A stretch of 64,000 nt of DNA from an uncultured Trueperaceae bacterium (lineage in GTDB: Bacteria; Deinococcota; Deinococci; Deinococcales; Trueperaceae). The position numbers and the translations under genes were made by a program. This document shows, one piece after another, positions 20,120-36,722 of the stretch; within the stretch, counting starts at the first letter, position 1, and every line of letters begins with the position of its first letter. The notes beneath the pieces are model-generated. The model did no database searches, was not told the DNA's origin, and saw nothing but the letters and a program-made list of their open reading frames with translations. The stretch is taken from positions 1 to 64,000 of the forward strand of contig CALMXZ010000012.1 of the NCBI GenBank assembly GCA_937873495.1, given 5' to 3'.

Positions 20120-21127
20120 TCAGCGCGTTCTCTCGAAGTGCGCGTCCTTGAGCACGTGCACCATGTCGAGCGCTTGTGCCGTGCCGAGCACGACGCAATC
20201 GGCGGCGTTGGCCGCGACGCCGACCGGGATGGACGTGATGCTCGACAGGTAGTCGTCGAGGTGCCGCAGCAGCGCCCCGCCGCCCGTGAGGACGATCCCG
20301 CGCTCGATGACGTCCGAGACCAGTTCCGGCGGCGCCTGCTCGAGGACCTTGCGCATGCCGTCCGCGATGCGCTCGAGTGACGGCTTGAGGGCGGCGACCA
20401 CGTCTTCTGTCGACACCGTGACGCTCTTCGGCATGCCGTCTATCAGGTCGCGGCCTCGCACCTCCATGGTCTGCCTGTCGCCCTCGCCGATGATCTTCGC
20501 CGCCCCGATCGTGCGCTTGATCTCCTCGGCCGTGCGGTCGCCGATGAGCAGGTTGTACTTGGCCCTCACGAAGGCCATGATGTCGCGGTCGAAGGTGTTG
20601 CCTGCGATGCGCAGGCTCTGCGACACGACGATGCCACCGAGGCTGATGATCGCCAGGTCCGTGGTGCCGCCGCCGATGTCTATCACCATCGAGCCGATGG
20701 GTTCGGCGATGGCGATGCCAGCGCCGATGGCGCCGGCCACGGGCTCCTCGATGAGGAACGCCTTGCGCGCCCCTACCTCGTGAACGGCCTGGACCACGGC
20801 TCGCCGCTCGACGTCCGTGATGCCGGACGGGATGCACACCATGATGTTCGGGCGCAAGAAGCGCGCCGGTCCGGTGAGGACCTTCCGTATGAACGCCTGG
20901 AGCATCTTCTCGGTGAGCGTGTAATCGGCGATCACCCCGTCGGCCATGGGCCTGACGGCCGTGATGTTCCCCGGGGTGCGCCCCAGCATCCGGTAGGCTT
21001 CCTGGCCGACGGCCTTCACCTCCGTCGTGCCTTTCACTACTGCGATCACCGCGGGCTCGCGCAGGAGCACGCCCTTGCCCTTGACGTGGATGCGTACGTT
21101 CGTGGTGCCGAGGTCGACCCCGATCAT
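20120..21127 (-). CDS. mreB: Rod-shape-determining actin homologue MreB
   Basis: 335 residues of the actin/Hsp70 fold: phosphate-1 loop MIGVDLGTTNVRIHVKGKG, phosphate-2 MVIDIGGGTTDLAIIS, and adenosine region GIVLTGGGALLRHLDDYLS. It forms filaments under the membrane that guide side-wall peptidoglycan synthesis. mreC and mreD do not follow; the neighbour downstream is convergent, so this is a monocistronic copy. The ATG is 6 bases after minus-strand TAGCGT (21134-21139), so the mRNA is probably leaderless. Presence of MreB suggests rod or elongating cells, or a retained paralogue. Confidence 0.95.
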   Translation of the reverse strand: MIGVDLGTTNVRIHVKGKGVLLREPAVIAVVKGTTEVKAVGQEAYRMLGRTPGNITAVRPMADGVIADYTLTEKMLQAFIRKVLTGPARFLRPNIMVCIPSGITDVERRAVVQAVHEVGARKAFLIEEPVAGAIGAGIAIAEPIGSMVIDIGGGTTDLAIISLGGIVVSQSLRIAGNTFDRDIMAFVRAKYNLLIGDRTAEEIKRTIGAAKIIGEGDRQTMEVRGRDLIDGMPKSVTVSTEDVVAALKPSLERIADGMRKVLEQAPPELVSDVIERGIVLTGGGALLRHLDDYLSSITSIPVGVAANAADCVVLGTAQALDMVHVLKDAHFERTR

Positions 21128-21133
21128 GGGTCC

Positions 21134-21177
21134 ACGCTACCAGGTAGCCAGGGGCCCGTGGCCGAGTCGGCTAGCAT
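21134..21177. promoter_or_regulatory. Divergent leaderless promoters (mreB / quinone oxidoreductase)
   Basis: TAGCGT on the minus strand (21134-21139) is 6 bases from the mreB ATG. TAGCAT on the plus strand (21172-21177) is 6 bases from GTG 21184. Confidence 0.55.
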
Positions 21178-21183
21178 GGCGGT

Positions 21184-22236
21184 GTGAGTGAAGGGTCGTC
21201 CGCAGGCACGATGACGGCGCTCGTCCCGGGTGCCGGCGGCACCCTCGCAGGCGCCTCCGTCGCCCGCCCCGTGCCGGGGCCGGGCGAGGTGCTCGTGCGC
21301 GTGCGGTGCGCCGGCATCAACCGCGCCGATCTCGCGCAGCGCGCCGGCATGTACCCGCCGCCCCCCGGCGTCACCGACATCCTCGGCCTCGAGGTGGCCG
21401 GTGAGATCGCAGAGCTCGGCCCTGGCCTGAGTTGGGGCGAAGCGGCGGACGGCGAGGCGCCGGCCGCCGACGCGGCCGCCGGGGCCGTGCTCCTACGGCC
21501 GGGGGCGCCCGTGTGCGCCCTGTTGCCTGGCGGCGGCTACGCCGAGTACGCCGCCGTCCCGGCGGCGCTCCTCATGCCCGTGCCCGCCGGCTGGACGCTG
21601 GTGGAGGCCGCGGCGTGGCCCGAGGCGGCGTTCACCGCGTTCCTCAACCTGTTCGTGGAGGCGCGCCTCCGCCAGGGCGAGCGCCTGCTCGTGCACGGCG
21701 GGGCGAGCGGCGTCGGCACCATGGCCATCGCGATGGCCGCCGCCGCCGGCGCGGCCGTGTTCGCCACGGCGGGAGGGCCGGAGAAGACGAGCCTCTGCCT
21801 GCAGCTGGGGGCCGAGGTGGTCGTCGACCGGCACAAGGAGTCGTTCGCGTCCGTCATCGACGCCTGCGTACCCCCTGGGGTCGACGTCGTGCTCGACATC
21901 GTCGGGCGCGCGTACTTCGCCGACAACCTCGCGGTGCTGAGGCCGGGAGGGCGGCTGGTCGTCATCTCGACCCTCAGCGGCGCCGAGGTGGAGCTGGACC
22001 TGCGGCGGCTCATGGCCAAACGCTTGCACGTGATCGGCTCGACGTTGCGGGGCCGATCGGTGGCCGAGAAGGTCGAGGTGAAGCGCGCTCTCTGGAGTAG
22101 GTTCGGGGCGCAGCTGGCCGCCGGTGGCCTGAAGCCGGTGCTCGACCAGGTCTACCCATGGAGCGACGCCGACGTGGCGCACGCGCGGATGCGGGCGAAC
22201 CGCAACGCGGGCAAACTGGTTCTGGAGCTCGGCTAG
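21184..22236 (+). CDS. NAD(P)H:quinone oxidoreductase, zinc-free MDR family (PIG3-like)
   Basis: 350 residues. GroES-like N-terminal domain with GEVLVRVRCAGINRADLAQRAGMYPPPPGVTDILGLEVAGEI is the PIG3/QOR pattern; the catalytic zinc ligands of alcohol dehydrogenases are absent. The Rossmann NADPH site is LLVHGGASGVGTMAIAMA. A Gly/Ala-rich insertion (about 80-105) lengthens the first domain. It reduces quinones with NADPH in the cytoplasm. It starts with GTG after TAGCAT, and its TAG stop shares one base with the GTG start of the methyltransferase (TAGTG). Confidence 0.88.
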   Translation: MSEGSSAGTMTALVPGAGGTLAGASVARPVPGPGEVLVRVRCAGINRADLAQRAGMYPPPPGVTDILGLEVAGEIAELGPGLSWGEAADGEAPAADAAAGAVLLRPGAPVCALLPGGGYAEYAAVPAALLMPVPAGWTLVEAAAWPEAAFTAFLNLFVEARLRQGERLLVHGGASGVGTMAIAMAAAAGAAVFATAGGPEKTSLCLQLGAEVVVDRHKESFASVIDACVPPGVDVVLDIVGRAYFADNLAVLRPGGRLVVISTLSGAEVELDLRRLMAKRLHVIGSTLRGRSVAEKVEVKRALWSRFGAQLAAGGLKPVLDQVYPWSDADVAHARMRANRNAGKLVLELG

Positions 22237-23039
22237 TGGCGTCGCGCTTGCGACCGGCCGCGCCGTACACGGACCTCGCCGGCGTCTACGACCGCCTGAT
22301 GGCCGACATCGAGTACGACGACTGGGCCGTCTTCATCCTGCGCACCGCCGCGCGCCGCGGCTTCACCGGCGGCGCCCTCCTCGACCTCGGCTGCGGCACG
22401 GGCAACGCCACGTTGCCGATGTGGGAGCTGGGCTACGAGGTCGAGGGCCTGGACGCGAGCGAGGCGATGCTGGCCGTCGCCCGCCGGAAGCTGCCCGGCA
22501 TCGCGTTCCACCACGGCACGTTCGAGGAGTTCTCGCTGCCGCGGCGCTTCGGCCTCGTGTACTCCGTGTTCGACGCCCTCAACAACCTGCTCGACGAGGC
22601 GGCCTTCTCGCGCTGCCTCGCCAGGGTGCGCGAGCATCTGCTGCCCGGCGGGGTCTTCGTGTTCGACGTGAACACCCCCGTCGGTTTGCGGGAACTGTGG
22701 TACGGCGGCGTCTCGGAAGGGTGGGCGGACGACGTCTACTACCGCTGGACGCACACGTACGACGAGGCGACGGGCCTCGCCACGGTCGAGGCATACTGCG
22801 ACACGGTCGCCGGCGCGGCCGACGACGAGCCGGCTTCGGGCGCCGCTAGGCCCGAAGCCGAGGCGGAGCTACTGCGCGGTTTCACGGAAGTGCACCAGGA
22901 GCGCGGCTACGCCGGGCCCGACCTCGTGCGCCTGCTGAGCGCGGCCGGCTTCCAGGACGTTGCGATCATCGAGTACCCGGACGGCGAGGCGGCGAGCCCG
23001 GACGCGGAGCGCGTCTGGGCGGTCGCCGTCTCGCCCTAG
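22236..23039 (+). CDS. Class I SAM-dependent methyltransferase
   Basis: 267 residues. Motif I LLDLGCGTGNATLPMWELG, then VEGLDASEAMLAVARRKL, GLVYSVFDALNNLLDEAAF and LLPGGVFVFDVNTP are typical of the Methyltransf_25/DUF-type small-molecule methyltransferases. The substrate is unknown. GTG 22236 is chosen because it overlaps the preceding stop by one base, which implies termination-reinitiation coupling with the quinone oxidoreductase; a quinone or isoprenoid-related substrate is conceivable but unproven. Confidence 0.85.
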   Translation: MASRLRPAAPYTDLAGVYDRLMADIEYDDWAVFILRTAARRGFTGGALLDLGCGTGNATLPMWELGYEVEGLDASEAMLAVARRKLPGIAFHHGTFEEFSLPRRFGLVYSVFDALNNLLDEAAFSRCLARVREHLLPGGVFVFDVNTPVGLRELWYGGVSEGWADDVYYRWTHTYDEATGLATVEAYCDTVAGAADDEPASGAARPEAEAELLRGFTEVHQERGYAGPDLVRLLSAAGFQDVAIIEYPDGEAASPDAERVWAVAVSP

Positions 23040-23042
23040 CGG

Positions 23043-23918
23043 TCACTTCAGTCCGGCCTGCTCGCGCACGACGCGGGCGACGTTCGACATGTCCTCGTCG
23101 CCGAAGCCGCGCGCCACCAGGCTCGTCTCCAGCTGCTCGACGTAGGCGGCCACCGGCATGCTCACGCCCAGCTCGCGCGCCGATGCCAGCGCTATGCCGA
23201 GGTCCTTGCGGTGCAGGCGGGTCCTGAACCCGAGCGGGTAGTCGCCGGCGAGCATGTTCCCGGCCCGGTTGGCGAGCACCCACGAGCCGGCCGCGCCGCC
23301 GCCGAGCGCCTTCAGGGCGGCCTCCGTGTCTATGCCGGCCGCCATCGCCAACGCCATGCCCTCGGCGACGGCGGCGTACGTGCCGGCGATGATGACCTGG
23401 TTGACCGCCTTGGCCACCTGCCCGCTGCCGACGGGGCCGACGAGCGTGATGGTGCGGCCGAGGTGCTCGAGGACCGGTCGCACGCGCTCGAGCGCGGCGG
23501 CCTCGCCGCCCACCATGATCGACAGGGTGCCGTTCTTGGCCCCCTCGCTGCCGCCGGACACCGGGGCGTCCAGCATCTGAACACCCCGCTGGGCGAGGGC
23601 GGCGGCCATGCGCCTGGTGGTGGCCGGGCTGATGGTGCTCATGTCCACGAGCACGGCGCCTTCCGCCAGCCCCTCGATCGCGCCGTGGTCGCCTATCACG
23701 ACGGCCTGAACGTCCGGGGTGTCGGACACCATCGTGAACACGACGTCGCGCTCCACGGCGCACGCCTTCGGGCTCGCGGCTCGCTTGGCGCCGAGGGCGG
23801 CCAGCGGCTCCTCGCGCTCGCGCGTGCGGTTGTGGACGGTGACGTCGAAGCCGGCCGCCAGCAGCCTGGCGGCCATCGGCGCGCCCATGGTGCCGAGTCC
23901 GATGAAGCCGATGCGCAT
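23043..23918 (-). CDS. 3-hydroxyisobutyrate / beta-hydroxyacid dehydrogenase family
   Basis: 291 residues. NAD(P) motif MRIGFIGLGTMGAPMAARLL, substrate-binding DAPVSGGSEGAKNGTLSIMVGG and catalytic Lys in VGSGQVAKAVNQV identify the 3-HIBADH/tartronate-semialdehyde reductase family. The ATG at 23918 is preferred to a TTG five codons upstream, because that TTG belongs to the GGAGG ribosome-binding site. It is a single gene, convergent with the methyltransferase, with acuC starting its own unit 53 bases upstream. Likely role: valine or glycolate/glyoxylate-linked metabolism; the precise acid is unknown. Confidence 0.88.
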   Translation of the reverse strand: MRIGFIGLGTMGAPMAARLLAAGFDVTVHNRTREREEPLAALGAKRAASPKACAVERDVVFTMVSDTPDVQAVVIGDHGAIEGLAEGAVLVDMSTISPATTRRMAAALAQRGVQMLDAPVSGGSEGAKNGTLSIMVGGEAAALERVRPVLEHLGRTITLVGPVGSGQVAKAVNQVIIAGTYAAVAEGMALAMAAGIDTEAALKALGGGAAGSWVLANRAGNMLAGDYPLGFRTRLHRKDLGIALASARELGVSMPVAAYVEQLETSLVARGFGDEDMSNVARVVREQAGLK

Positions 23919-23971
23919 GTGGTTGTCCTCCAAAGCCGGCGGCCCCGACGGGCGGCCGGCGCTCGCAGCGT

Positions 23972-25171
23972 TCAGGACGAGGTTACCCCGCTCGTGAGTC
24001 CGGTGTCCTGCCAGATGGCTCGCAGCGCCTCCAACGTCCTGCCGGCGACGACACGGTTGCGCCGCGCCACCTGCTCACGCTTGGGGTGTGGCTCGAACTC
24101 TTCCGGTCCGTCCGTCGCACGGCGGGGGATGGGGGCCTCGGGCAGGCGCGAGCGCCACTCCGCCTGCCACTCTGCCGGCAGCTCTGCCGGCAGCTCGCGG
24201 CCCGTCAGCGCGCTCCAGAGCTGCGCCCACGCGCGCGGGACCGTGCGGTAGGGGTCGTAGCCGCCGCCGCCGGTGGCGACGATGCGCCCGCCCGTCAGCT
24301 CGTCCGCCAACGCCACGACCCGCTCATAGGCCGCCCGCATGCCCGTGAGCGTCAGGGAGAGGTCCGCCAAGGGATCGAAGCGGTGGGGGTCGGCGCCGGC
24401 CTGCAGGAGGATGACGTCCGGCCTGAACGCCCGCAGGGCGGTCGGGACGACGGTGTCGAAGGCCTCGAGGTAAGAGTCGTCCTCCGTGAAGGGCTCGAGC
24501 GGTACGTTGACGGACAGCCCGCGCCCGGCGCCCTTGCCCGTCTCGTACGGGTGGCCGGTGCCGGGGAAGAGGTAGTGGCCGGACTCGTGCAGGCTGACCT
24601 TCAGGACGGCGGGGTCCTCGTAGAGCAGCCACTGGACCCCGTCGCCGTGGTGCGCGTCGAGGTCGACGTAGGCGACGCGCAGCCCGTGGCGGTCGACCGC
24701 CCGCCGGATGGCAACGGCGAGATCGTTGTAGACGCAGAAGCCGGACGCCCGGTCACGCAGCGCGTGGTGCAGGCCGCCGCCGAGGTTGACGGCGCGGAGC
24801 GCCCTGCCGGTCGCGACGAGCTCCATAGCCGTCACCGTTCCGGCGCAGACGAGCGAGACGAGCTCGTGCATGCCGGGGAAGACCGGGTTGTCCGCCGTGC
24901 CGAGGCCGCGGTGCCTGGCCCGCTCGACGACCTCCCCTCGCGACAGGGCCGCCACGTCGGCGACGTAGTCGGGATCGTGCACGGTGAGCAGCGCGGCCTC
25001 ATCGAGGGGGGCGGGCGGCACGACCTCGGACGGCGCCAGGACCCCGGCGTGCTCCAACAGCGAGCGGGTCAGCTCCATCCTCAACGGCTTGAACGGGTGG
25101 TCGGCGGCGAGCTCGAAGCGCGCCATGCGCTGGTCGTGCACGAGCAGGACGCCGGGTCCTGTGAGGCTCAC
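23972..25171 (-). CDS. acuC: AcuC, acetoin-utilisation-type class I-like deacetylase
   Basis: 399 residues of the histone-deacetylase fold. Zinc and charge-relay residues appear in GGGLHHALRDRASGFCVYNDLAVAIRR, AYVDLDAHHGDGVQ and LLQAGADPHRFDPLADLSLT, with the C-terminal GGGGYDPYRTVPRAWAQLW. In Bacillus AcuC removes the acetyl group that AcuA places on acetyl-CoA synthetase, reactivating it (known). The start overlaps the acuB stop by 4 bases (ATGA). It is the last gene of the STAND-acuA-acuB-acuC unit. Confidence 0.93.
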   Translation of the reverse strand: MSLTGPGVLLVHDQRMARFELAADHPFKPLRMELTRSLLEHAGVLAPSEVVPPAPLDEAALLTVHDPDYVADVAALSRGEVVERARHRGLGTADNPVFPGMHELVSLVCAGTVTAMELVATGRALRAVNLGGGLHHALRDRASGFCVYNDLAVAIRRAVDRHGLRVAYVDLDAHHGDGVQWLLYEDPAVLKVSLHESGHYLFPGTGHPYETGKGAGRGLSVNVPLEPFTEDDSYLEAFDTVVPTALRAFRPDVILLQAGADPHRFDPLADLSLTLTGMRAAYERVVALADELTGGRIVATGGGGYDPYRTVPRAWAQLWSALTGRELPAELPAEWQAEWRSRLPEAPIPRRATDGPEEFEPHPKREQVARRNRVVAGRTLEALRAIWQDTGLTSGVTSS

Positions 25172-25824
25172 GCTTCCGGAGCCTCCGGCGGCCAGAGCAC
25201 GTTGTAGCCGAGCCCGCGCAAGTAGGCCGCGAGGCCGTGCCCGTCGACGGTCGCTATGCGCATCACGAACGCGACGGTGTCGGCGTCCGGGTCGGAACGG
25301 GAGGTCATCACGCTCGAGACGTTCACGTTCCGGCTCGCGACCCGGTCGAGGAGCCCGGCCAGCGCGCCGGGCCGGTCGAGCAGCTCGACCTCGAGGCGGC
25401 TCGAGGCCCCGCGCACGCCCGACATCCTGATGAGGGCGTCGAGCATGTCGATGCCGGTGACGATGCCGACGAGGCGCCCGTCGTCCATGACCGGCATGGC
25501 GCCGATCTTGTTGTCCCGCAAGACCTTGGCGGCCTCCTCGATGGGGTCGTCGGGGTCGGCGGTGAGGACCGGATGGACCATGAGGAGTCTGACGGGGTCG
25601 CTCGCCCGCACCCCCGGAGGCGCTTTCGGATGGTCGGCGCCGACGAGGCGCACGTCGCGGTCGGAGACGATGCCGACCAGCCGGTCTGAGGCGCCGCCGC
25701 TCGGTTCGGCGAGGATGGGGAAGTGGCGGATGTTGCGGAGCTCCATCAGGGCCTGAACGTCCTTGATGGGCGTGTCCGGGCCGATGGCTACGACCTTGCT
25801 TGACATGATCTCGTTAACGAGCAT
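25168..25824 (-). CDS. acuB: AcuB-like CBS-pair plus ACT protein
   Basis: 218 residues: CBS domain 1 (about 1-60, VNEIMSSKVVAIGPDTPIKDVQALM), CBS domain 2 (about 75-135, LMVHPVLTADPDDPIEEAAKVLRDNKIGAMPVMDD) and an ACT domain (about 143-215, LEVELLDRPGALAGLLDRVASRNVNVSSV). The architecture equals Bacillus AcuB. CBS pairs usually sense adenine nucleotides, so this may link energy state to acetylation control (inference). GAAGGAG lies 8 bases before ATG 25824. Confidence 0.9.
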   Translation of the reverse strand: MLVNEIMSSKVVAIGPDTPIKDVQALMELRNIRHFPILAEPSGGASDRLVGIVSDRDVRLVGADHPKAPPGVRASDPVRLLMVHPVLTADPDDPIEEAAKVLRDNKIGAMPVMDDGRLVGIVTGIDMLDALIRMSGVRGASSRLEVELLDRPGALAGLLDRVASRNVNVSSVMTSRSDPDADTVAFVMRIATVDGHGLAAYLRGLGYNVLWPPEAPEA

Positions 25825-25849
25825 CGGCTTGCTCCTTCATCATGGGATG

Positions 25850-26461
25850 CTACCAGGGGTTTCGTGAGAGGCCGTTGCCGCCCTTGCGCAGGCGATGGAA
25901 CTCCGCCACCACACGTTCGTCGGCCCGAGGACCGACGCGCGCCATGAGGGCGTTGGCGGCGCTGCTGCGGATCTCCTCGTCGCTCGTCGCGAAGGTCTCC
26001 AGCCCGACGGAACGGTAGAGGGTCTCGAGCATGCGGCGGTACGCGAGGTCGGTCATGCCGCTCCTGCCGAGGTCGTAATGCCAGACGTAGAGGGTCGCGA
26101 AGACGACGGTCGTGTCGAAGCGCCCGTCGGCGAAGCTCGCTCGCAGCAGGCGGGGCGCGAGGCGGTGGCCGCGGTAGGCGGGAGCCACCTCGATGGCGCC
26201 CAACTCGATGAGCTCACCCGTCGCGTCGGCGCCCCACGACTCGATCTCGGTCGGCGGGTGGAAGGCGACGTAGCCGACGAGCGTCGTGCCCGCGAGCGCC
26301 GCGACGACGCACCCCTTCGGATCGGAGGCGATGTCGACGAGTGCCGCCAGCTGCCGCTCCGGCGCGCGGAAGCGGTCTAGGCCTTGGTGGGCACGCAGCC
26401 CGGCCAGCTCGGCCGCCGGAACGCACGCCACGATCCGAACGGTCTCGTCCGCCGAGCCCAT
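25850..26461 (-). CDS. acuA: AcuA-like GNAT acetyltransferase
   Basis: 203 residues. GLDRFRAPERQLAALVDIA, TTLVGYVAFHPP, ELIELGAIEVAPAYRGHRLAPRLL, WHYDLGRSGMTDLAYRRMLE and SSAANALMARVG follow the order of Bacillus AcuA, including the acetyl-CoA-binding RGHRLA loop and the WHYDL segment. AcuA acetylates and inactivates acetyl-CoA synthetase. It starts 7 bases after the stop of the 1057-residue STAND-like ATPase gene and 25 bases before acuB, so all four are probably one transcript. No acsA gene lies in the window. Confidence 0.88.
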   Translation of the reverse strand: MGSADETVRIVACVPAAELAGLRAHQGLDRFRAPERQLAALVDIASDPKGCVVAALAGTTLVGYVAFHPPTEIESWGADATGELIELGAIEVAPAYRGHRLAPRLLRASFADGRFDTTVVFATLYVWHYDLGRSGMTDLAYRRMLETLYRSVGLETFATSDEEIRSSAANALMARVGPRADERVVAEFHRLRKGGNGLSRNPW

Positions 26462-26468
26462 GCGCGGC

Positions 26469-29400
26469 TCAGGCCGGCGCGCTCGTCTGCGCCCGCGTCC
26501 TGCTGCGCCAGGCGGCGACGAGCGCGTCCGGCAGACGCGCGGGCGTCGACGGTCCGGTCCCGTCGACGCCGAGGAGCGCGCGCAGGCGCCGGTGGGACTT
26601 CCAGCCGTCGCCGACGCCCCGTTCGTCGGCGGACTCGCCGAACGCCCTGAGCAGCCCCTCGTGGTACGGGCTCAGCGCGGCGTCGTCCAGGCCGGCGGTC
26701 AGCGCCGCCGCCGCGGCCTTCGCGTCGCCGAGGGCCAAGTGGGCGTCTACGGCGTAGCTCGCCAGCTGAGCGCGCAACCCGGCGTCGCCCCCTTCGGCGG
26801 GCTCCGTAGTAGCAGGTACGGAGTCGAGCGCGTCGGAGGCCGCCTGCACGTCGGCGAGGACCGCCTTGGCATCCAGCAGGCGCATGTGCGCCGCCGCCAT
26901 GGCGCTGAGGGCCCTGGCGCGCGCATGCTCGTGCTCGACGTCGCTCAGCCCAGCTTCCGCGAACCGGAGGGCGGTCGCGCCGTCCACGGCGAACTGGCTC
27001 GCGAGGAGCAGCGCGTCGAGCCGGAGCCCGCGGTGCTGAGCCTGGTCGTCGACGGCGCCAAGGACCTCGTCTATGCGCTGACGCGCATGGCGCAGGTCGG
27101 GTCCGTCGAGCCCGTCGCGCAAGGTCGGGAAGGGGCGGCGGTAGGGGACGGCCAGACCGCGGCAGGCGTAGGCGATCGCCAACGTCAGCGTGCCGCGCAG
27201 CGCGCGGTACGGGCGGGCGTCGTTCGTGCCCGCGTGTTCGCGGAAGCCGGCCAGTGCCCGCGTCACGGCGTAGGTGCCCTCCTCGAAGTCGCCGAGGGCG
27301 AGGGCGGTCAACGCCCACTCGGCGTCGACCTTCGCGAGCCGCAAGGCCGTCTCGGCCTCAGGCAGCTCGGCCCCGTGCAGGCGCGCCCTGGCCGCCTTGA
27401 AGTCGGTGAGCGACCCGGCCAGGTCGCCGCGCACCCGCAACAGGGCCGCGCGGCGGGTCAGGTAGCGCGCCTGCTCCTGCGCCAGCGCTTCCGAGCGGTG
27501 CGCCAGCTCGACGGCGGAGTCGAGGGCCGCCTTCGCGGTGTCGTACCGGCCGAGCCGCATGGCGATGTCGCCGCGCTGGTACTGGACGCGGGCGCGCACG
27601 AGGTCGTCGGTCGCCTCGACGCCGTCGAGGCGCGCCAAGGCGCCCGTGAGGTCGCCGCGATCCTTCGCGATCATGCCTTCCCACACCCCGGCCTTGACGG
27701 CCGTCAAGCGCGCCTCGCGCCCGGTCGACGTGACGCGGGCGAGCTCGCCCCGCACCGTGGCGGTGATCAGCTCGGCCGCCGTGGCCAGCTCGCCGCGCCA
27801 CCTGGCGATGCTCGCGCGCGCCAAGGCCCGTTCCGCGCGCGCCAGCGGGTCGGCTATGTCCGGCGCGGTGTCGAGCAGCACCTCGGCACGCTCGAAGCGG
27901 CCGGCGAGCGCTTCGCCTTCCGCGCGCTTGACGAGGGTCCAGGCCCGCAGGGCCGGGTCGGTGGAGGCCGCCGCCGCCTCGAACGCCTTGAGCGCTTCGG
28001 GGTGCCCGTAGGCGCCGAGGCGCACGTAGTGCGCCGCCACCTGCTTCGCCACGGCGTCGAACTCCGGCCCCGCGCGCAGCTCGGAGGCGGCGGCCTGCCA
28101 GACCTGGCGCACCTGGGCGTGCGAGACGGCGTGCCCCGCCAGCCGGTCCGTGAGCGAGCGCCAATCGCGGGCCTCGAAGAGGTGGTGCAGCTGCCTGGCG
28201 GCGGCGTCGCCCGCCGGGTCCTGCGCGGCCGCCGGCGCGTACAGGGCGGCCGCGGCGAGCTGCATGCGCCGGTGCACCGTCGGCTCGTCCGTCGCCAGCC
28301 GCGTCTGCAACGCGCGGGCGAGCTGGCGCGAGAAGACGCGGTAGTGGTCCGGCTGCCCCGGCACGGGGTCGAGGAACGAGAGCTCGAACGACCCGAGGGG
28401 GCGGGTCACGTCGCGGAGCCGCTGCAGGGTGCCGGCGGCGAACGCCGGGTGCTCCGGCGGCGAGAGCACCGCGATGGCGGCGAGGAAGGCGCGCAGGTCG
28501 GAGTCGCCGGCCGTGACGAGGCCGGAGAGCTGCTCGATGTAGCGCTCGTCGGGCTGCAGCCCGGCTTCCTGCGGGGCGCGGGCCTGGGCGAGGAGCGTCA
28601 ACGTCCGCAGCTCCTCGAACGACCGGCCGGCGCGCTGCACGATCTCTTCCTGGCGCCCGGCGCTCAGGTCGGGCACGCGTGCCCTGACGAAGCGGCGCGC
28701 CTCCGTGACCGTCGGCGGGGTCAGTCGGATGGGGTCGGCGAAGTTGCCGAGGCGCTGCATGGCGCGGGCCGGGAGGTCGGTGATGGTCACGAACAGCATG
28801 ACGCGCTGCAGGCGCGCCAACGGCTCGAAGAGCGTCACCCACAGCCACTCGACGGCACTCACGCGCGGCACGTCGGGGTTGGCGAGGCGTAAGGGCACGA
28901 GCCCGAGGCTGTCCTGGCTGGCGAGCGACTGCGAGACGTGGAACAGGAGCAGGATGGGGGCTTGCCGCTGGCGCACCGCCTCGAGGACGACGCGGGCGAG
29001 CTCGGCCTGCGCGTCGGCCTGCACGGAGAAGGCGCTGGCGGTCGCGATGCGCACGAGGCGCGCCTCCATGACGTCCGTCGGCACTCCGAGCTCCGTGGCG
29101 AGGCGGACGAGGGAGGTGGCTAGGTCCGTGCCACCGAACTCGAGGCGGACGACGGCGAGCCCGCCCTCGTGCAGGAGCTCGACGCCCTGCCTGACGTAGT
29201 CGGTCAGCAGCGTCTTCCCGGAGCCGGGCCGGCCCGTCACCAGGACTTTGGGCATCTCCCCGGCCCGGATGCCCCCGATCATCGCGCGGTACGCCCGGCG
29301 CTTGTCGCGCCCGAGAAGTTGGAGGACCTCCTGCTCCGTGCCGGCCGTGGGGGAGAGCGCCGCCTGGAGCTCCGGTAGCGCGAGCGGCGCGTTGCCTGCC

Positions 29401-29642
29401 TCGCGCCAGAGCTCGTCAAGGATCGCGAAGAGGGCGCGTTTGTCGGGCAACCTCCCCTTGTCCCGGTAGATGATGTTCCTCACGACGTTGGGGTTGGCGC
29501 CGTGGGCCTCCATGGCGCTACGCAGCCAGTTGATGCTCCCAACGACGCCGTGCTCGTCCCGCCGGTGGCCGACGGCCTGGCGAACGTTCTCGAACAGTGG
29601 GCGCCACGGGCTGACCGGCTCTGTCGGCGACGGGTTCCGCAT
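26469..29642 (-). CDS. STAND-like P-loop ATPase with TPR-type repeats, head of the acu operon
   Basis: 1057 residues. A helical N-terminal domain (about 12-85: WRPLFENVRQAVGHRRDEHG, then NPNVVRNIIYRDKGRLPDKRALFAIL, perhaps a helix-turn-helix) precedes a NACHT/STAND-like ATPase with Walker A GRPGSGKT (137-144). The expected Walker B strand reads APILLLFHVSQS, with His (235) where an Asp is normal. DPIRLTPPTVTEARRFV fits the sensor/winged-helix region. From about 530 the protein is alpha-helical repeats resembling TPRs (for example AKAALDSAVELAHRSEALAQEQARYLTRRAALLRVRGDL). Such proteins act as ligand-controlled switches. Its operon partners suggest a role in acetyl-CoA signalling (inference). 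The ATG is 6 bases after TAAACT. I know no described family member. Confidence 0.8.
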   Translation of the reverse strand: MRNPSPTEPVSPWRPLFENVRQAVGHRRDEHGVVGSINWLRSAMEAHGANPNVVRNIIYRDKGRLPDKRALFAILDELWREAGNAPLALPELQAALSPTAGTEQEVLQLLGRDKRRAYRAMIGGIRAGEMPKVLVTGRPGSGKTLLTDYVRQGVELLHEGGLAVVRLEFGGTDLATSLVRLATELGVPTDVMEARLVRIATASAFSVQADAQAELARVVLEAVRQRQAPILLLFHVSQSLASQDSLGLVPLRLANPDVPRVSAVEWLWVTLFEPLARLQRVMLFVTITDLPARAMQRLGNFADPIRLTPPTVTEARRFVRARVPDLSAGRQEEIVQRAGRSFEELRTLTLLAQARAPQEAGLQPDERYIEQLSGLVTAGDSDLRAFLAAIAVLSPPEHPAFAAGTLQRLRDVTRPLGSFELSFLDPVPGQPDHYRVFSRQLARALQTRLATDEPTVHRRMQLAAAALYAPAAAQDPAGDAAARQLHHLFEARDWRSLTDRLAGHAVSHAQVRQVWQAAASELRAGPEFDAVAKQVAAHYVRLGAYGHPEALKAFEAAAASTDPALRAWTLVKRAEGEALAGRFERAEVLLDTAPDIADPLARAERALARASIARWRGELATAAELITATVRGELARVTSTGREARLTAVKAGVWEGMIAKDRGDLTGALARLDGVEATDDLVRARVQYQRGDIAMRLGRYDTAKAALDSAVELAHRSEALAQEQARYLTRRAALLRVRGDLAGSLTDFKAARARLHGAELPEAETALRLAKVDAEWALTALALGDFEEGTYAVTRALAGFREHAGTNDARPYRALRGTLTLAIAYACRGLAVPYRRPFPTLRDGLDGPDLRHARQRIDEVLGAVDDQAQHRGLRLDALLLASQFAVDGATALRFAEAGLSDVEHEHARARALSAMAAAHMRLLDAKAVLADVQAASDALDSVPATTEPAEGGDAGLRAQLASYAVDAHLALGDAKAAAAALTAGLDDAALSPYHEGLLRAFGESADERGVGDGWKSHRRLRALLGVDGTGPSTPARLPDALVAAWRSRTRAQTSAPA

Positions 29643-29663
29643 GCGGCCAGTTTACCTGGCCGC
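29643..29663. promoter_or_regulatory. Operator-like inverted repeat over the STAND-acu promoter
   Basis: A perfect 8-bp repeat, GCGGCCAG-TTTAC-CTGGCCGC, ends one base from the start codon and encloses the minus-strand -10 TAAACT (29649-29654). A protein bound here would block the RNA polymerase -10 contact; alternatively it forms a hairpin only if transcription starts upstream. Confidence 0.6.
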
Positions 29664-29739
29664 TAACATCCGAGTACACAACCCAGCGAGGGGCGGAGCT
29701 GGCGTCACCGCCGGGACCGGCGTCCTCGGCGGCCGGTGG

Positions 29740-29745
29740 TAGACT
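29740..29745 (+). promoter_or_regulatory. -10 box TAGACT for mqnC
   Basis: Seven bases separate it from ATG 29753, with no ribosome-binding site. The same TAGACTCTCG string precedes the alanine racemase start at 58193. Confidence 0.55.
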
Positions 29746-29752
29746 CTCGGCC

Positions 29753-30907
29753 ATGAGCCTCTTGAGCAAGGCCGCTTCCGGCGCGCGCCTGACACCGGAC
29801 GAGGCGCTCGAGCTCTACTCGCTGCCGCTCTTCGACCTGGCCGCGGCGGCCGACTCCGCCCGCTCGCTGCGCACGGACCCCGAGACCGTCACTTACCTCA
29901 TCGACCGCAACATCAACTACTCCAACGTCTGCTCAGTCGGCTGCGCCTTCTGCGGCTTCTACCGCACGCGGCGGCAGGCGGACGCCTACACGCTGAGCTT
30001 CGAGGATATCTCGCAGAAGATCGTCGAGCTCGAGGCCGTCGGCGGCAGCCGCATCCTCATGCAGGGCGGCGTGAACCGCTACCTGCCGTTCGACTGGTAC
30101 CTCGACCTCATGCGGCACCTCAAGGAGCGCCACCCGACCATCCGCGTCGAGGCGTTCAGCCCGGAGGAGATCAAGGGCATGGCCGGCCTGACGGGCATGG
30201 GCACGCGCGAGGTGCTCGTCGCGCTCCAGGCCGCCGGCCTGGACGGCCTGCCGGGCGGCGGCGGCGAGATGCTGGTCGACGACGTGCGCCACGCCAAGCA
30301 CGTGTCGCCCGGGCGCATCTCGGCCGACGAGTGGATCCGCGTCATGGGCGAGGCCCAGGCGCTGGGGCTGTACACGACGGCCACGATGGTCATCGGCTTC
30401 GGCGAGACGCATGCTCAGCGCGTCGCGAGCCTCATGCGCGTGCGCGACCAACAGGACCGGGCAGCCGCTACGCACGGCAACGGCTTCTCGGCCTTCATCT
30501 CCTGGACGCTCCAGACCGAGGGCGTGCGCATCCACGGCAAGGCGCCGGGCGCCGGTGCTCATGAGTACCTGCAGAACGTCGCCGTCAGCCGCCTCCTCCT
30601 CGACAACGTCGTCAACTTCCAGGCGTCCTGGCCCACCATGGGCTACAAGGTGGCGCAGACCGCCCTCTACTTCGGCTGCAACGATTTCGGCTCCACCATG
30701 CTCGAGGAGAACGTCGTCTCGCAAGCCGGAGCCAAGCACAGCAACACGCCCGAGAGCGAGATCGTGCGGCAGATCGTCGACGCCGGCTACCGGCCGGCCC
30801 AGCGCGATTCGCTCTACAACATCATCAGGCGCGTCGACCCAGGCGAGTTCGACCTGCCTGCGCTCCCGAGCACGCCCTCAGGCCAACCCCGCGCGACCGC
30901 AGGCTGA
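29753..30907 (+). CDS. mqnC: Cyclic dehypoxanthinyl futalosine synthase, radical SAM
   Basis: 384 residues. The radical-SAM cluster motif is CSVGCAFC inside RNINYSNVCSVGCAFCGFYRTRRQADAYTLS, the MqnC version (CxxxCxxC, followed by FYR). ILMQGGVN, RVEAFSPEEIKGMAGLTGMGTREVL and GLPGGGGEML are further MqnC blocks. It cyclises dehypoxanthinyl futalosine in the alternative menaquinone pathway. The gene is probably leaderless. Its TGA stop shares a base with the ATG of the next gene (TGATG), which ties it to the amidohydrolase. Confidence 0.95.
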   Translation: MSLLSKAASGARLTPDEALELYSLPLFDLAAAADSARSLRTDPETVTYLIDRNINYSNVCSVGCAFCGFYRTRRQADAYTLSFEDISQKIVELEAVGGSRILMQGGVNRYLPFDWYLDLMRHLKERHPTIRVEAFSPEEIKGMAGLTGMGTREVLVALQAAGLDGLPGGGGEMLVDDVRHAKHVSPGRISADEWIRVMGEAQALGLYTTATMVIGFGETHAQRVASLMRVRDQQDRAAATHGNGFSAFISWTLQTEGVRIHGKAPGAGAHEYLQNVAVSRLLLDNVVNFQASWPTMGYKVAQTALYFGCNDFGSTMLEENVVSQAGAKHSNTPESEIVRQIVDAGYRPAQRDSLYNIIRRVDPGEFDLPALPSTPSGQPRATAG

Positions 30908-32094
30908 TGGCCGTACGCCCCCTGCCCGAGGTCATCGGGGGCGCCGTCGACCGGTCGTACGGCCGCGTGGTGGCCCGGGCCATGGTCGTGTACGACGGGC
31001 TCGGGCTGCCGCGCGAGGACGGCGCCGTCACGGTGCAGCTCGCCCCAGGCGTCGCGAGCGTCGTGCGAACGAGCGCCATGGCGGAGGCGCGCTCGACCTA
31101 CCCCGATGCCGCTGTCGTCGACTGCGGCTTCGCCGTGTCGCCGCCCATCGTCAACGCCCACACGCACCTCGACCTGTCGACGATGCCGCACACCCCCGGC
31201 CCGTACGTCGGCTTCATCGGCGCCGTGATCGCCCACTCCCGCTCCGGCGCGCGCGGCTTGGCCGCGGCGAAGCTTGGCGTGGCCGAGCTCAAGGCGAGCG
31301 GCGCGCGCGTGATCGGCGACATCGTGACCGACCCGGCCACCATGGAGTACCTGCTCGGCCAGGACGAGCTGTCCGGCGTCGCGTACTGGGAGGTCATCGC
31401 CCCACGGGCGGAGGACGCCGACGCCGCCTTCGCCGCCACGCTCGAAGCGCTCGCCCGCTTCAGGGCGCTCGAGCGGCCGGGCGGCGTGCGCGTCGGCCTG
31501 TCGCCTCACACGCCGCACACGGTGAGCGCGCCGCTGCTGGCGCGGCTCGCCGCGTACGCCGCCGCCGAGGGGCTCCCCCTAGCCGTCCACGTCGCGGAGA
31601 GCCCCGCCGAGCTGGAGCTCCACCTGAGAGGCACGGGCGCGCTGGCCGAGTCGCTCGCGCAGGCGGGCTTCGGCATGGCGGCAACAGGCGTCAGCCCCGT
31701 GCGCTACCTGCACGACCTCGGCGTCCTGGCGGCCGGGCCGACGCTGATCCACGGCGTGCACGTCGACGACGACGACGCGCGCCTCCTGGCGCGTGCCGGC
31801 GCCGTGGTCGTGCACTGCCCCCGCTCCAACGCGGCGTTGGCGTGCGGGGCCTTTCCGTGGACGACCTACGCGAAGCACGGTGTCGAGGTCGCGTTCGGTA
31901 CCGATTCGCGCGGGTCGAGCCCAGACCTCGACGTCACGCGCGAGGTGGCGGCGGCGCTCGCCGTGCAGGGCGCGAAGCTCAACCCCCGCGCCGCCTTGCG
32001 CGCCGCGGTCAAGGGCGGGTACAAGGCGCTCGGCATGCTGCCCCCGCGCGTGGTGCGCGGCGCTTCCGCCGCCGACCTCGTGGCGTGGGGGTGA
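30907..32094 (+). CDS. Metal-dependent amidohydrolase, probable aminofutalosine deaminase
   Basis: 395 residues of the COG0402 amidohydrolase fold: metal ligands in NAHTHLDLSTM, later LAVHVAES, LIHGVHVDDDDA and FGTDSRGSSPDLDV, the usual HxH...H...H...D arrangement of cytosine/SAH-deaminase relatives. Deinococcota use an aminodeoxyfutalosine deaminase (MqnX-type) in place of MqnA-route hydrolysis, and coupling to mqnC by a one-base overlap makes this the best assignment (inference). Without context it could also be a guanine or SAH/MTA deaminase. Confidence 0.8.
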   Translation: MAVRPLPEVIGGAVDRSYGRVVARAMVVYDGLGLPREDGAVTVQLAPGVASVVRTSAMAEARSTYPDAAVVDCGFAVSPPIVNAHTHLDLSTMPHTPGPYVGFIGAVIAHSRSGARGLAAAKLGVAELKASGARVIGDIVTDPATMEYLLGQDELSGVAYWEVIAPRAEDADAAFAATLEALARFRALERPGGVRVGLSPHTPHTVSAPLLARLAAYAAAEGLPLAVHVAESPAELELHLRGTGALAESLAQAGFGMAATGVSPVRYLHDLGVLAAGPTLIHGVHVDDDDARLLARAGAVVVHCPRSNAALACGAFPWTTYAKHGVEVAFGTDSRGSSPDLDVTREVAAALAVQGAKLNPRAALRAAVKGGYKALGMLPPRVVRGASAADLVAWG

Positions 32095-32273
32095 GCGTGT
32101 CGAGCCGACTACATGCGCGGGGCGGCGCGGGAAAGTAACCTACGAGGCACGCCCGTGGCGCGTACGCCCGTGGCGCGCCCAGGGCGCGCGTGCCGCGAGG
32201 GCGCGCCCCATGAGGGCGACTCAAGTGGTAGCCGCCCGCGCGAGCACGCTTGAGGGAGGAGAAACGTAACGAC

Positions 32274-32603
32274 ATGGCCAACTCGCTCGAACTGACCGAC
32301 GGTAACTTCGCTTCCGAGACCGACTCGGGCCTCGTCCTGGTCGACTTCTGGGCCCCATGGTGCGGACCGTGCCGCCTGGTAGGGCCCGTCATCGAAGAGC
32401 TCGCCTCCGACTACGCCGGCAAGGTCAAGGTCGGCAAGCTCAACGTCGACGACAACCTGCGCGTCGCGCAGGAGTTCCGCATCATGAGCATCCCGACCGT
32501 CATGCTCTTCAAGGACGGCAAGCCCGTCGAGGTCATGGTCGGCGCCCAGTCGAAGGCCAACTATGAGGCGCGGCTCAAGAAGCACGTGCCCGTCAGCGCC
32601 TGA
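32274..32603 (+). CDS. trxA: Thioredoxin
   Basis: 109 residues. The active site WAPWCGPCRL, buried Asp in LVLVDFW, cis-Pro SIPTVMLF and KDGKPVEVMVGAQ are standard for bacterial thioredoxin. It reduces protein disulfides in the cytoplasm. The ATG at 32274 has GGAGG 15 bases upstream and gives the conventional N-terminus. The preceding 179 bases hold a TAACCT hexamer near 32135 that could be a -10, and a repeated CGCCCGTGGCGCG (32152-32164, 32168-32180). Confidence 0.95.
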   Translation: MANSLELTDGNFASETDSGLVLVDFWAPWCGPCRLVGPVIEELASDYAGKVKVGKLNVDDNLRVAQEFRIMSIPTVMLFKDGKPVEVMVGAQSKANYEARLKKHVPVSA

Positions 32604-32638
32604 GCGCGCGAGCGTTCGGCGGCGAGCCACGTAACGGC

Positions 32639-32666
32639 GGCGGGCCGGGATCGATCCGGGCCCGCC
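32639..32666 (+). terminator. Hairpin after trxA
   Basis: Stem GGCGGGCC (32639-32646) pairs with GGCCCGCC (32659-32666); the loop contains the self-complementary GGATCGATCC. A weak T-rich stretch (TGCTTGGTTCT) follows, so it is a probable intrinsic terminator. Confidence 0.6.
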
Positions 32667-32709
32667 TGCTTGGTTCTAAGAGGCCGGTGTGCGGCGCCCG
32701 GCGCCGCCC

Positions 32710-33135
32710 TCAACCGGGGGCGAAGCGGCTCACGCCCCTGGGCGAGACCCGCCACGCCGTGCTCGGCAGGCGCGACGAGCGCAGCACGAGCACGTAGCTG
32801 GAGCCGTCGGTGGCGAACTCCTGGAGCGTCCACCTGGCCCCCTCCGGTAGCTTGACGTCGATCAGCGCGTTGGTGGTGTAGACGCCCGTCTCGAGGCGCC
32901 CGAGCTCCATGCGGTGGTAGAGGACCTGGGCCGTGCGTTCCAGCTCCGTGGCAACGGGGTCCGTCGCGGCTCCCGGCCCGAAGGCGCCCGGAGCGCAGGC
33001 GCCGAGCAGCCCCACGAGCGCCATGCAGAGGAACGACCTGACCAACTTGCCGGCCATTGCCTGCGCCGGCCGGCCGCGCGGCGCTGCCGCGCCCGAGCCG
33101 CCGCCTGCTCCTGATGTCGCGGTCAACGCTTCCAT
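32710..33135 (-). CDS. Small secreted lipoprotein, pilin-like C-terminal half
   Basis: 141 residues from ATG 33135, or 115 from ATG 33057. The sequence from 33057 begins MAGKLVRSFLCMALVGLLGAC, a lipoprotein signal with lipobox LLGAC. The rest (TELERTAQVLYHRMELGRLETGVYTTNALIDVKLPEGARWTLQEF) recalls the soluble part of minor type IV pilins and pseudopilins, but without a pilin N-terminus. The longer start is favoured by a minus-strand TAACAT box exactly 6 bases upstream; the shorter by the signal peptide. The two are not reconciled. It is probably anchored in a membrane facing outside. Confidence 0.65.
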   Translation of the reverse strand: MEALTATSGAGGGSGAAAPRGRPAQAMAGKLVRSFLCMALVGLLGACAPGAFGPGAATDPVATELERTAQVLYHRMELGRLETGVYTTNALIDVKLPEGARWTLQEFATDGSSYVLVLRSSRLPSTAWRVSPRGVSRFAPG

Positions 33136-33141
33136 GCCCTC

Positions 33142-33147
33142 ATGTTA
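33142..33147 (-). promoter_or_regulatory. -10 box TAACAT for the lipoprotein gene
   Basis: It lies 6 bases before ATG 33135, the leaderless spacing seen repeatedly here. Confidence 0.45.
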
Positions 33148-33186
33148 CCGGCGCGTCGGGGGCGGGTGAGCGCCGTCGGCACACCG

Positions 33187-33903
33187 TCATACGCGGGCAT
33201 CGAGCACGGGGGCGAGGCCCATGCGTACGAGGTAGCGCTGCGAGCCCGCGCGCCGCTGGTAGCGCTGGACGAGGGCGAACATCTCGCGTTGGAGCTCCTT
33301 GGCGTCTGCGAAGTCGAGCTGCAGCTGGTCGCGCCAGAGCGACAGGGTGGCGGGGGCGTCCGGCTCCAGCGTCGTGGCGTTGGCGTCCGGGGTCACGGCC
33401 GTCTGGACCTGCAGGTGGCCGCGCTCGTCCCGGTAGAAGCGCGTGCCCCAGTCGCCGAGCGCCTCGCGCCTGCCCCGCACGACGTTGCGCCTGAGCAGGC
33501 GCTCCCAGTAGGCGTCGCGCTCGGCGAGCGCCGCCTCGAGCGACTCCGAGTGCGTCGCCTCGAACGGCACGAAGAAGACGTCGGCCGTCGAGCGGTAACG
33601 CTTGACGGCGCGGCCGGCCCGTGGCACGACCTCGGCCACCTCGAGGAGCCCGAGCCGCTCGAAGCGCTGCACGCGTTTGAGGGTCGTGTTGGGCTTCTCG
33701 CCCGTCTCCCGCGCCGCCTCGCCGACGCTGAGCGTGCGCCCGAGGAAGGGGGCGACCTGGCGCAGGGTGGTGGGGTCGGTCAGGGCCTCCGCGGCGTGTT
33801 CGTCCGTGACGATCAACGTACGGGCCGCGCTCCCGTGGCTGGCCGGCTGGGCGTCGTCGTACGTCGGCGTGGCGCGGTTGCTAGATGATTTGAAGGCTGT
33901 CAT
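33187..33903 (-). CDS. ArsR-like winged-helix transcriptional regulator
   Basis: 238 residues. The N-terminal ArsR-type region (about 40-105) reads ALTDPTTLRQVAPFLGRTLSVGEAARETGEKPNTTLKRVQRFERLGLLEVAEVVPRAGRAVKRYRSTADVFFVP, with a helix-turn-helix at SVGEAARETGEKPNTTLKRVQRF and a basic wing. The C-terminal half is a helical, charged effector or dimer domain of unknown ligand. The gene is divergent from aconitase, and a perfect 9-bp inverted repeat lies between its own -10 and -35, so autorepression is likely. Control of acnA is a reasonable inference. Confidence 0.8.
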   Translation of the reverse strand: MTAFKSSSNRATPTYDDAQPASHGSAARTLIVTDEHAAEALTDPTTLRQVAPFLGRTLSVGEAARETGEKPNTTLKRVQRFERLGLLEVAEVVPRAGRAVKRYRSTADVFFVPFEATHSESLEAALAERDAYWERLLRRNVVRGRREALGDWGTRFYRDERGHLQVQTAVTPDANATTLEPDAPATLSLWRDQLQLDFADAKELQREMFALVQRYQRRAGSQRYLVRMGLAPVLDARV

Positions 33904-33910
33904 ATCACAT

Positions 33911-33934
33911 AGGTTAGCCCCAAACTTGGGGCTA
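33911..33934. promoter_or_regulatory. Operator between the winged-helix regulator and aconitase
   Basis: Perfect inverted repeat TAGCCCCAA (33915-33923), 2-base spacer AC, TTGGGGCTA (33926-33934). The minus-strand -10 TAACCT occupies 33911-33916, 7 bases from ATG 33903, so the repeat spans the -10/-35 spacer. Confidence 0.75.
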
Positions 33935-33989
33935 GAGAACGCGCGTGAGCAGCGCGTTGAGAACCAGCCCCAGCGCTAGGGAGCACGAC

Positions 33990-36722
<2,733 letters not shown>

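Follow-up and report, generated by a model that had tools for sequence, protein, structure and literature searches.

STAND proteins include defence systems, and the DNA-binding domain of the Escherichia coli regulator MalT is located at the C-terminus. Both MalT and AfsR of Streptomyces combine an NTPase switch with a TPR-type sensor for transcription control (PMC10427625, PMC10936776), and AfsR has a SARP domain (PMC10936776). PH0952 of Pyrococcus horikoshii (6MFV) is a predicted transcription factor consisting of an N-terminal DNA-binding domain, a NOD and a TPR sensor (PMC6468293). In Bacillus, the acu operon is repressed by CcpA (PMC13121692), and its ligand sensor is AcuB, which acts on AcuC (PMC13121692, PMC13039410).

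The window, which is the whole stretch of 64,000 nucleotides analyzed from an uncultured Trueperaceae bacterium, contains genes of the same order and families as acuA-acuB-acuC of Bacillus subtilis, behind a large gene encoding a STAND-like protein. The features of this run are as follows:

29649 to 29680, minus strand: promoter of the STAND-like gene, with the element TGTGTACT at 29680-29673 and the -10-like TAAACT at 29654-29649
26469 to 29642, minus strand: STAND-like gene, 1057 amino acids (ORF call, Pfam, alignment, AlphaFold2 and Foldseek)
25850 to 26461, minus strand: acuA, GNAT lysine acetyltransferase (phmmer to the AcuA structures 9g7f and 2q04)
25168 to 25824, minus strand: acuB, two CBS domains and an ACT domain (Pfam)
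23972 to 25171, minus strand: acuC, Zn-dependent deacetylase (Pfam Hist_deacetyl, E = 1.5e-85; HDAC motifs)
23043 to 23933, minus strand: beta-hydroxyacid dehydrogenase, last gene of the run (Pfam)

The ORF list confirmed the layout given by the sequence-only reading, in which a 1057-residue P-loop/TPR gene is followed on the same strand by acuA, acuB and acuC, the successive gaps being 7, 25 and -4 bases. No promoter- or terminator-like site was found by a scan of the region, positions 26461-26469 included. The dehydrogenase gene starts 38 bases past acuC, and mqnC is the divergent neighbor of the STAND-like gene. AcuA matched Bacillus AcuA in the PDB (phmmer; 9g7f, E = 1.3e-38; 2q04, E = 1.1e-34), and AcuC kept the HDAC catalytic motifs. 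AcuB, the ligand-sensing part in Bacillus, is present in the window as a CBS-ACT protein, and the genome encodes the AMP-forming acetyl-CoA synthetase target with the acetylation-site motif PKTRSGK; all parts of the AcuABC system are thus present. In Bacillus, acsA lies divergently beside acu (PMC13121692), whereas here acs is on another contig than the acu run, which is headed by the STAND-like gene. The dehydrogenase belongs to the 3-hydroxyisobutyrate dehydrogenase / tartronate-semialdehyde reductase family by Pfam; all of its NCBIfam matches were under the cut-off, and the naming as 3-hydroxyisobutyrate dehydrogenase is not settled. It adjoins the STAND-like gene or acuC in most genomes of the window's family, a Deinococcota lineage that resembles the Trueperaceae. 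The surrounding block, at 20120-36722 of the window, reads acn, an HTH gene, trx, mqnX and mqnC; STAND-like gene, acu and dehydrogenase; methyltransferase and Zn-ADH; and mreB, and from acn to mreB it is largely kept across many genera of the family. No plasmid relatives were found.

The STAND-like protein comprises an N-terminal helical domain (residues ~12-125), a P-loop NTPase (~128-350), a predicted winged-helix region (381-452) and a TPR-like helical solenoid (454-1054). The reading frame is truly coding, because its differences from an orthologue fall 60/33/176 on codon positions 1/2/3. The P-loop is GRPGSGKT (residues 137-144), and the Walker A pattern GxPGSGKT is conserved across the window-type STAND-like family. 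The AAA_16 and TPR matches are below the Pfam cut-off for the single window sequence but reappear among its orthologues, 39 of 46 having AAA_16. AlphaFold2, run on a 46-row alignment, gave a model with a mean pLDDT of 88.9 and a pTM of 0.70, in which the predicted winged helix is formed by helices 381-393, 403-410 and 439-452 and strands 400-402, 424-426 and 433-436, with helical hairpins continuing to 1054. The winged helix and the superstructure-forming sensor that follow the helical domain in STAND proteins were both found with AlphaFold2 and Foldseek, and the top PDB fold match was the STAND protein PH0952 (6mfv, E = 9.4e-9). Two hallmarks are absent. The strand at 230-236, the third strand, is ILLLFHV (LLLHVSQ or LLLRAE in relatives) and is not followed by a Walker B acid, and the nearest conserved segment to the GxP motif of the helical domain, AGRSFEEL (338-345), keeps the G and has no P. 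Because the Walker B acid and the GxP proline are missing, we use the name STAND-like.

The likeness to PH0952 covers a putative N-terminal DNA-binding domain, the NTPase core, the winged helix and the TPR sensor (PMC6468293). However, the two proteins share 12% identity and have different N-terminal domains, and the window protein lacks the GxP proline and has a much longer TPR region. No sequence-family match to MalT or AfsR was seen; the candidate DNA-binding domain is N-terminal here, at the opposite end from that of MalT, and the SARP domain sets AfsR apart. The N-terminal domain is the best-conserved part of the protein, with 12 invariant positions in 46 sequences. It showed no significant family or fold match, as all Foldseek matches had E > 0.2, and the named ones among these weak matches were largely of the lambda-repressor/XRE type. 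An assignment to XRE was rejected, since a profile comparison with XRE domains of the same and related genomes scored no better than shuffled columns. We infer that this domain binds DNA.

An effector function, as in an anti-phage STAND NTPase (Avs-like), or a scaffold function appears extremely unlikely. The STAND class includes such defence systems, and PADLOC returned a single very weak match (mad8, E = 0.0023); however, the gene is inherited vertically and sits at one place in most genomes, the protein has no nuclease or other effector domain and no PHROGs match, and no defence genes were identified among the neighbors. The PHROGs and PADLOC searches gave no support to a defence gene.

Loci fetched from relatives were searched with tblastn and annotated with a gene caller made for the purpose, and whole genomes were searched as well. 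Orthologues of the STAND-like protein occur in 32 of 39 genomes of the family. A second STAND-like type, ~30% identical, forms a separate clade in Thermus-like families and is a paralogue in a few family members. A scan of named genomes gave one close relative, KLAP159 (MAG Deinococcota bacterium), which is the closest named relative with 92% identity over the STAND-like protein. Of 37 genomes of the family, 10 had both AcuA and the STAND-like protein, 20 had the STAND-like protein only, 4 had AcuA only and 3 had neither. This distribution gave no signal of co-occurrence (Fisher p = 0.39 for the 37 genomes, p = 1.0 for genomes with a completeness of 90% or more). The two genes are nevertheless adjacent in every one of the 10 family genomes that carry both, and their linkage is not random.

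Genera g1, g5 and g15 have the complete block, with mqnC divergent from STAND-like gene, acuA, acuB, acuC and dehydrogenase. The block of g12 is divided between two contigs, one holding the STAND-like gene and acuA and the other acuB, acuC, one opposite-strand gene and then the dehydrogenase. In g11 and g14, acuA was lost and the rest of the block kept, and in g16, G010 and G028 all acu genes were lost, with the dehydrogenase directly after the STAND-like gene (at -4 bases in most). Conversely, the STAND-like gene was lost from G011, G023, G031 and G034, where acuABC occupies its slot, and from G021, where acuBC does. Other Deinococcota families have acuABC without a STAND-like gene in front, and in G038 and G041, of other families, both genes are present but far apart. 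Neither gene needs the other, because each is kept without the other across relatives. In most genomes, the gap between the STAND-like gene and the next gene on the same strand, whether acuA, acuB, acuC or the dehydrogenase, measures between -4 and 16 bases. The STAND-like gene of G007 is truncated and encodes 398 amino acids, comprising the N-terminal and NTPase parts only, with acuC and the dehydrogenase still in place.

These comparisons bear on the proposal of the sequence-only reading that a STAND-like switch is co-transcribed with acuABC and controls AcuA/AcuC. Co-transcription with such a switch is plausible from the PH0952 fold match and the operon-like spacing, but its being joined to the Acu switch did not hold up. 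Control of AcuA/AcuC is unsupported, as the protein occurs without AcuA in 20 of the 30 carrier genomes of the family and AcuA occurs alone in 4. Occurrence of the gene without acu genes in most relatives had been named as what would speak against the proposal, and the neighborhood survey largely found this. No paper joining a STAND protein to an acu operon was found in the literature searches made. Direct gating, in which the STAND-like protein binds a metabolite and acts on AcuA or AcuC at the protein level, is quite improbable. It would agree with the consistent adjacency and with G013 and G017, where the STAND-like gene lies outside the usual block and stays with acuA and acuC, respectively. 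However, the lack of co-occurrence, the retention of each gene without the other in the same slot and the presence of acuABC alone in other Deinococcota families argue against it, and in Bacillus AcuB already controls AcuC (PMC13039410). Describing the STAND protein as a built-in part of the Acu switch would mislead, because both genes are lost independently.

The main rival explanation is that an unrelated STAND-like signalling protein heads a conserved run and the acu genes are carried along by inherited gene order. We consider this possible but somewhat unlikely. The tree of the STAND-like proteins agrees with vertical inheritance in the course of which acu genes were lost, and a vertically inherited block from which the acu genes drop out (full, acuBC only or none) would be expected of such a bystander, as would the missing co-occurrence with AcuA. 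Against it, the tight spacing implies shared transcription, other members of the protein family lie beside methylmalonyl-CoA mutase or isocitrate lyase genes, and a private promoter element suggests a regulatory role.

This element has the consensus TGTGTACTTGTTTACT and the window version TGTGTACTCGGATGT, ~28-42 bases before the start codon of the STAND-like gene. The TGTGTACTTGTTTACT form occurs in less GC-rich genomes, and in the genus of the window the element reads TGTGTACT, its second half having diverged. In the aligned promoters, a -10-like hexamer follows the element a few bases before the start codon; in the window, TAAACT sits six bases before the ATG, an arrangement of the leaderless type. 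A leaderless TANNNT pattern is described for Deinococcus-Thermus, and promoters arranged in this leaderless way are common across the phylum (PMC12340547). At ~-28 to -42, the element is strict in 22 of 27 STAND-like genes and present as a variant in 3 more, counts taken from genes that share descent and are not independent events. All 6 genus members carry the genus form TGTGTACTN{14,19}GTAAACT once per genome, always at the STAND-like gene, against 0 matches for the control. The 14-base core was found in 9 of 39 genomes with 1-2 copies each, and 8 of these genomes have a copy at the STAND-like gene. The element accompanies the STAND-like gene where this is relocated or without acu neighbors, and none of the five family genomes checked that lack the STAND-like gene carries it in front of acuA/acuB. 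Thus, it belongs to the STAND-like gene and not to acu, which fits autoregulation. It is missing from the truncated gene of G007, and in G014 it is displaced to ~200 bases upstream instead of near -38. A large regulon was rejected: with two mismatches allowed and nine genomes summed, there were 100 matches versus 77 in a reversed-pattern control, a modest excess only. The palindrome GCGGCCAGGTAAACTGGCCGC directly before the ATG was also rejected as an operator, because it is not conserved in close relatives; TGTGTAC is favored.

We propose, with about even confidence, that the STAND-like protein is a transcription factor that regulates itself and, in the clade of the window, shares its transcript with acuABC. 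The layout would be that of MalT, AfsR and PH0952, with a probable DNA-binding domain at the N-terminus, a nucleotide-binding switch that includes a winged helix, and a long TPR sensor. The protein would most likely bind the TGTGTAC element in the promoter of its gene and control its own operon. In the window's clade, the transcript would continue through acuA, acuB, acuC and the dehydrogenase and so set the amount of Acu machinery, a role like that of CcpA for the Bacillus acu operon that would not require contact with AcuA or AcuC. We infer DNA binding, autoregulation and co-transcription from four lines of evidence: PH0952, the best structural match, is itself a predicted transcription factor; the most conserved domain is the N-terminal one, with weak named matches of the lambda-repressor/XRE type; the strict, near-private element moves with the gene and is absent before acu in STAND-less relatives; and the gene is tightly coupled on the same strand to whichever gene comes next. 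On the other side, the N-terminal domain has no significant match and the XRE profile comparison was negative, both the Walker B acid and the GxP proline are missing, and another protein could bind the element, whose copy in G014 lies far upstream. The ligand, guessed from the neighboring genes, may be an acyl-CoA or another carbon-state signal.

Other neighborhoods were seen outside the acu run. In genus g2 (L067, L068), a STAND-like gene of the window type is followed after 137-159 bases by a methylmalonyl-CoA mutase gene (Pfam), and there are no acu genes nearby. In five Thermus-like genomes (L036-L040), a gene of isocitrate lyase size precedes the second STAND-like type by ~100-160 bases on the same strand, and in L038 this gene was confirmed as isocitrate lyase. 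In G017 (L047), the second type is convergent with isocitrate lyase. As a lead, the neighbors suggest C2/C3 carbon metabolism, and many members have other neighbors. A wider reading, which we offer tentatively and regard as unlikely, is that the Deinococcota have a family of STAND-like transcription regulators whose N-terminal DNA-binding domain is undescribed and which control the metabolism of acetate, propionate and glyoxylate. One branch would head acuABC, beta-hydroxyacid dehydrogenase or methylmalonyl-CoA mutase genes and the other would lie beside isocitrate lyase, and each would read the acyl-CoA state via its TPR sensor.

If the STAND-like protein is the regulator proposed here, a STAND-type switch would set how much of the machinery for acetyl-CoA synthetase acetylation this branch of the Deinococcota makes, a task that falls to CcpA in Bacillus. 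The protein would also be a carbon-state regulator that has a single, nearly private promoter element and whose N-terminal domain belongs to no named family.
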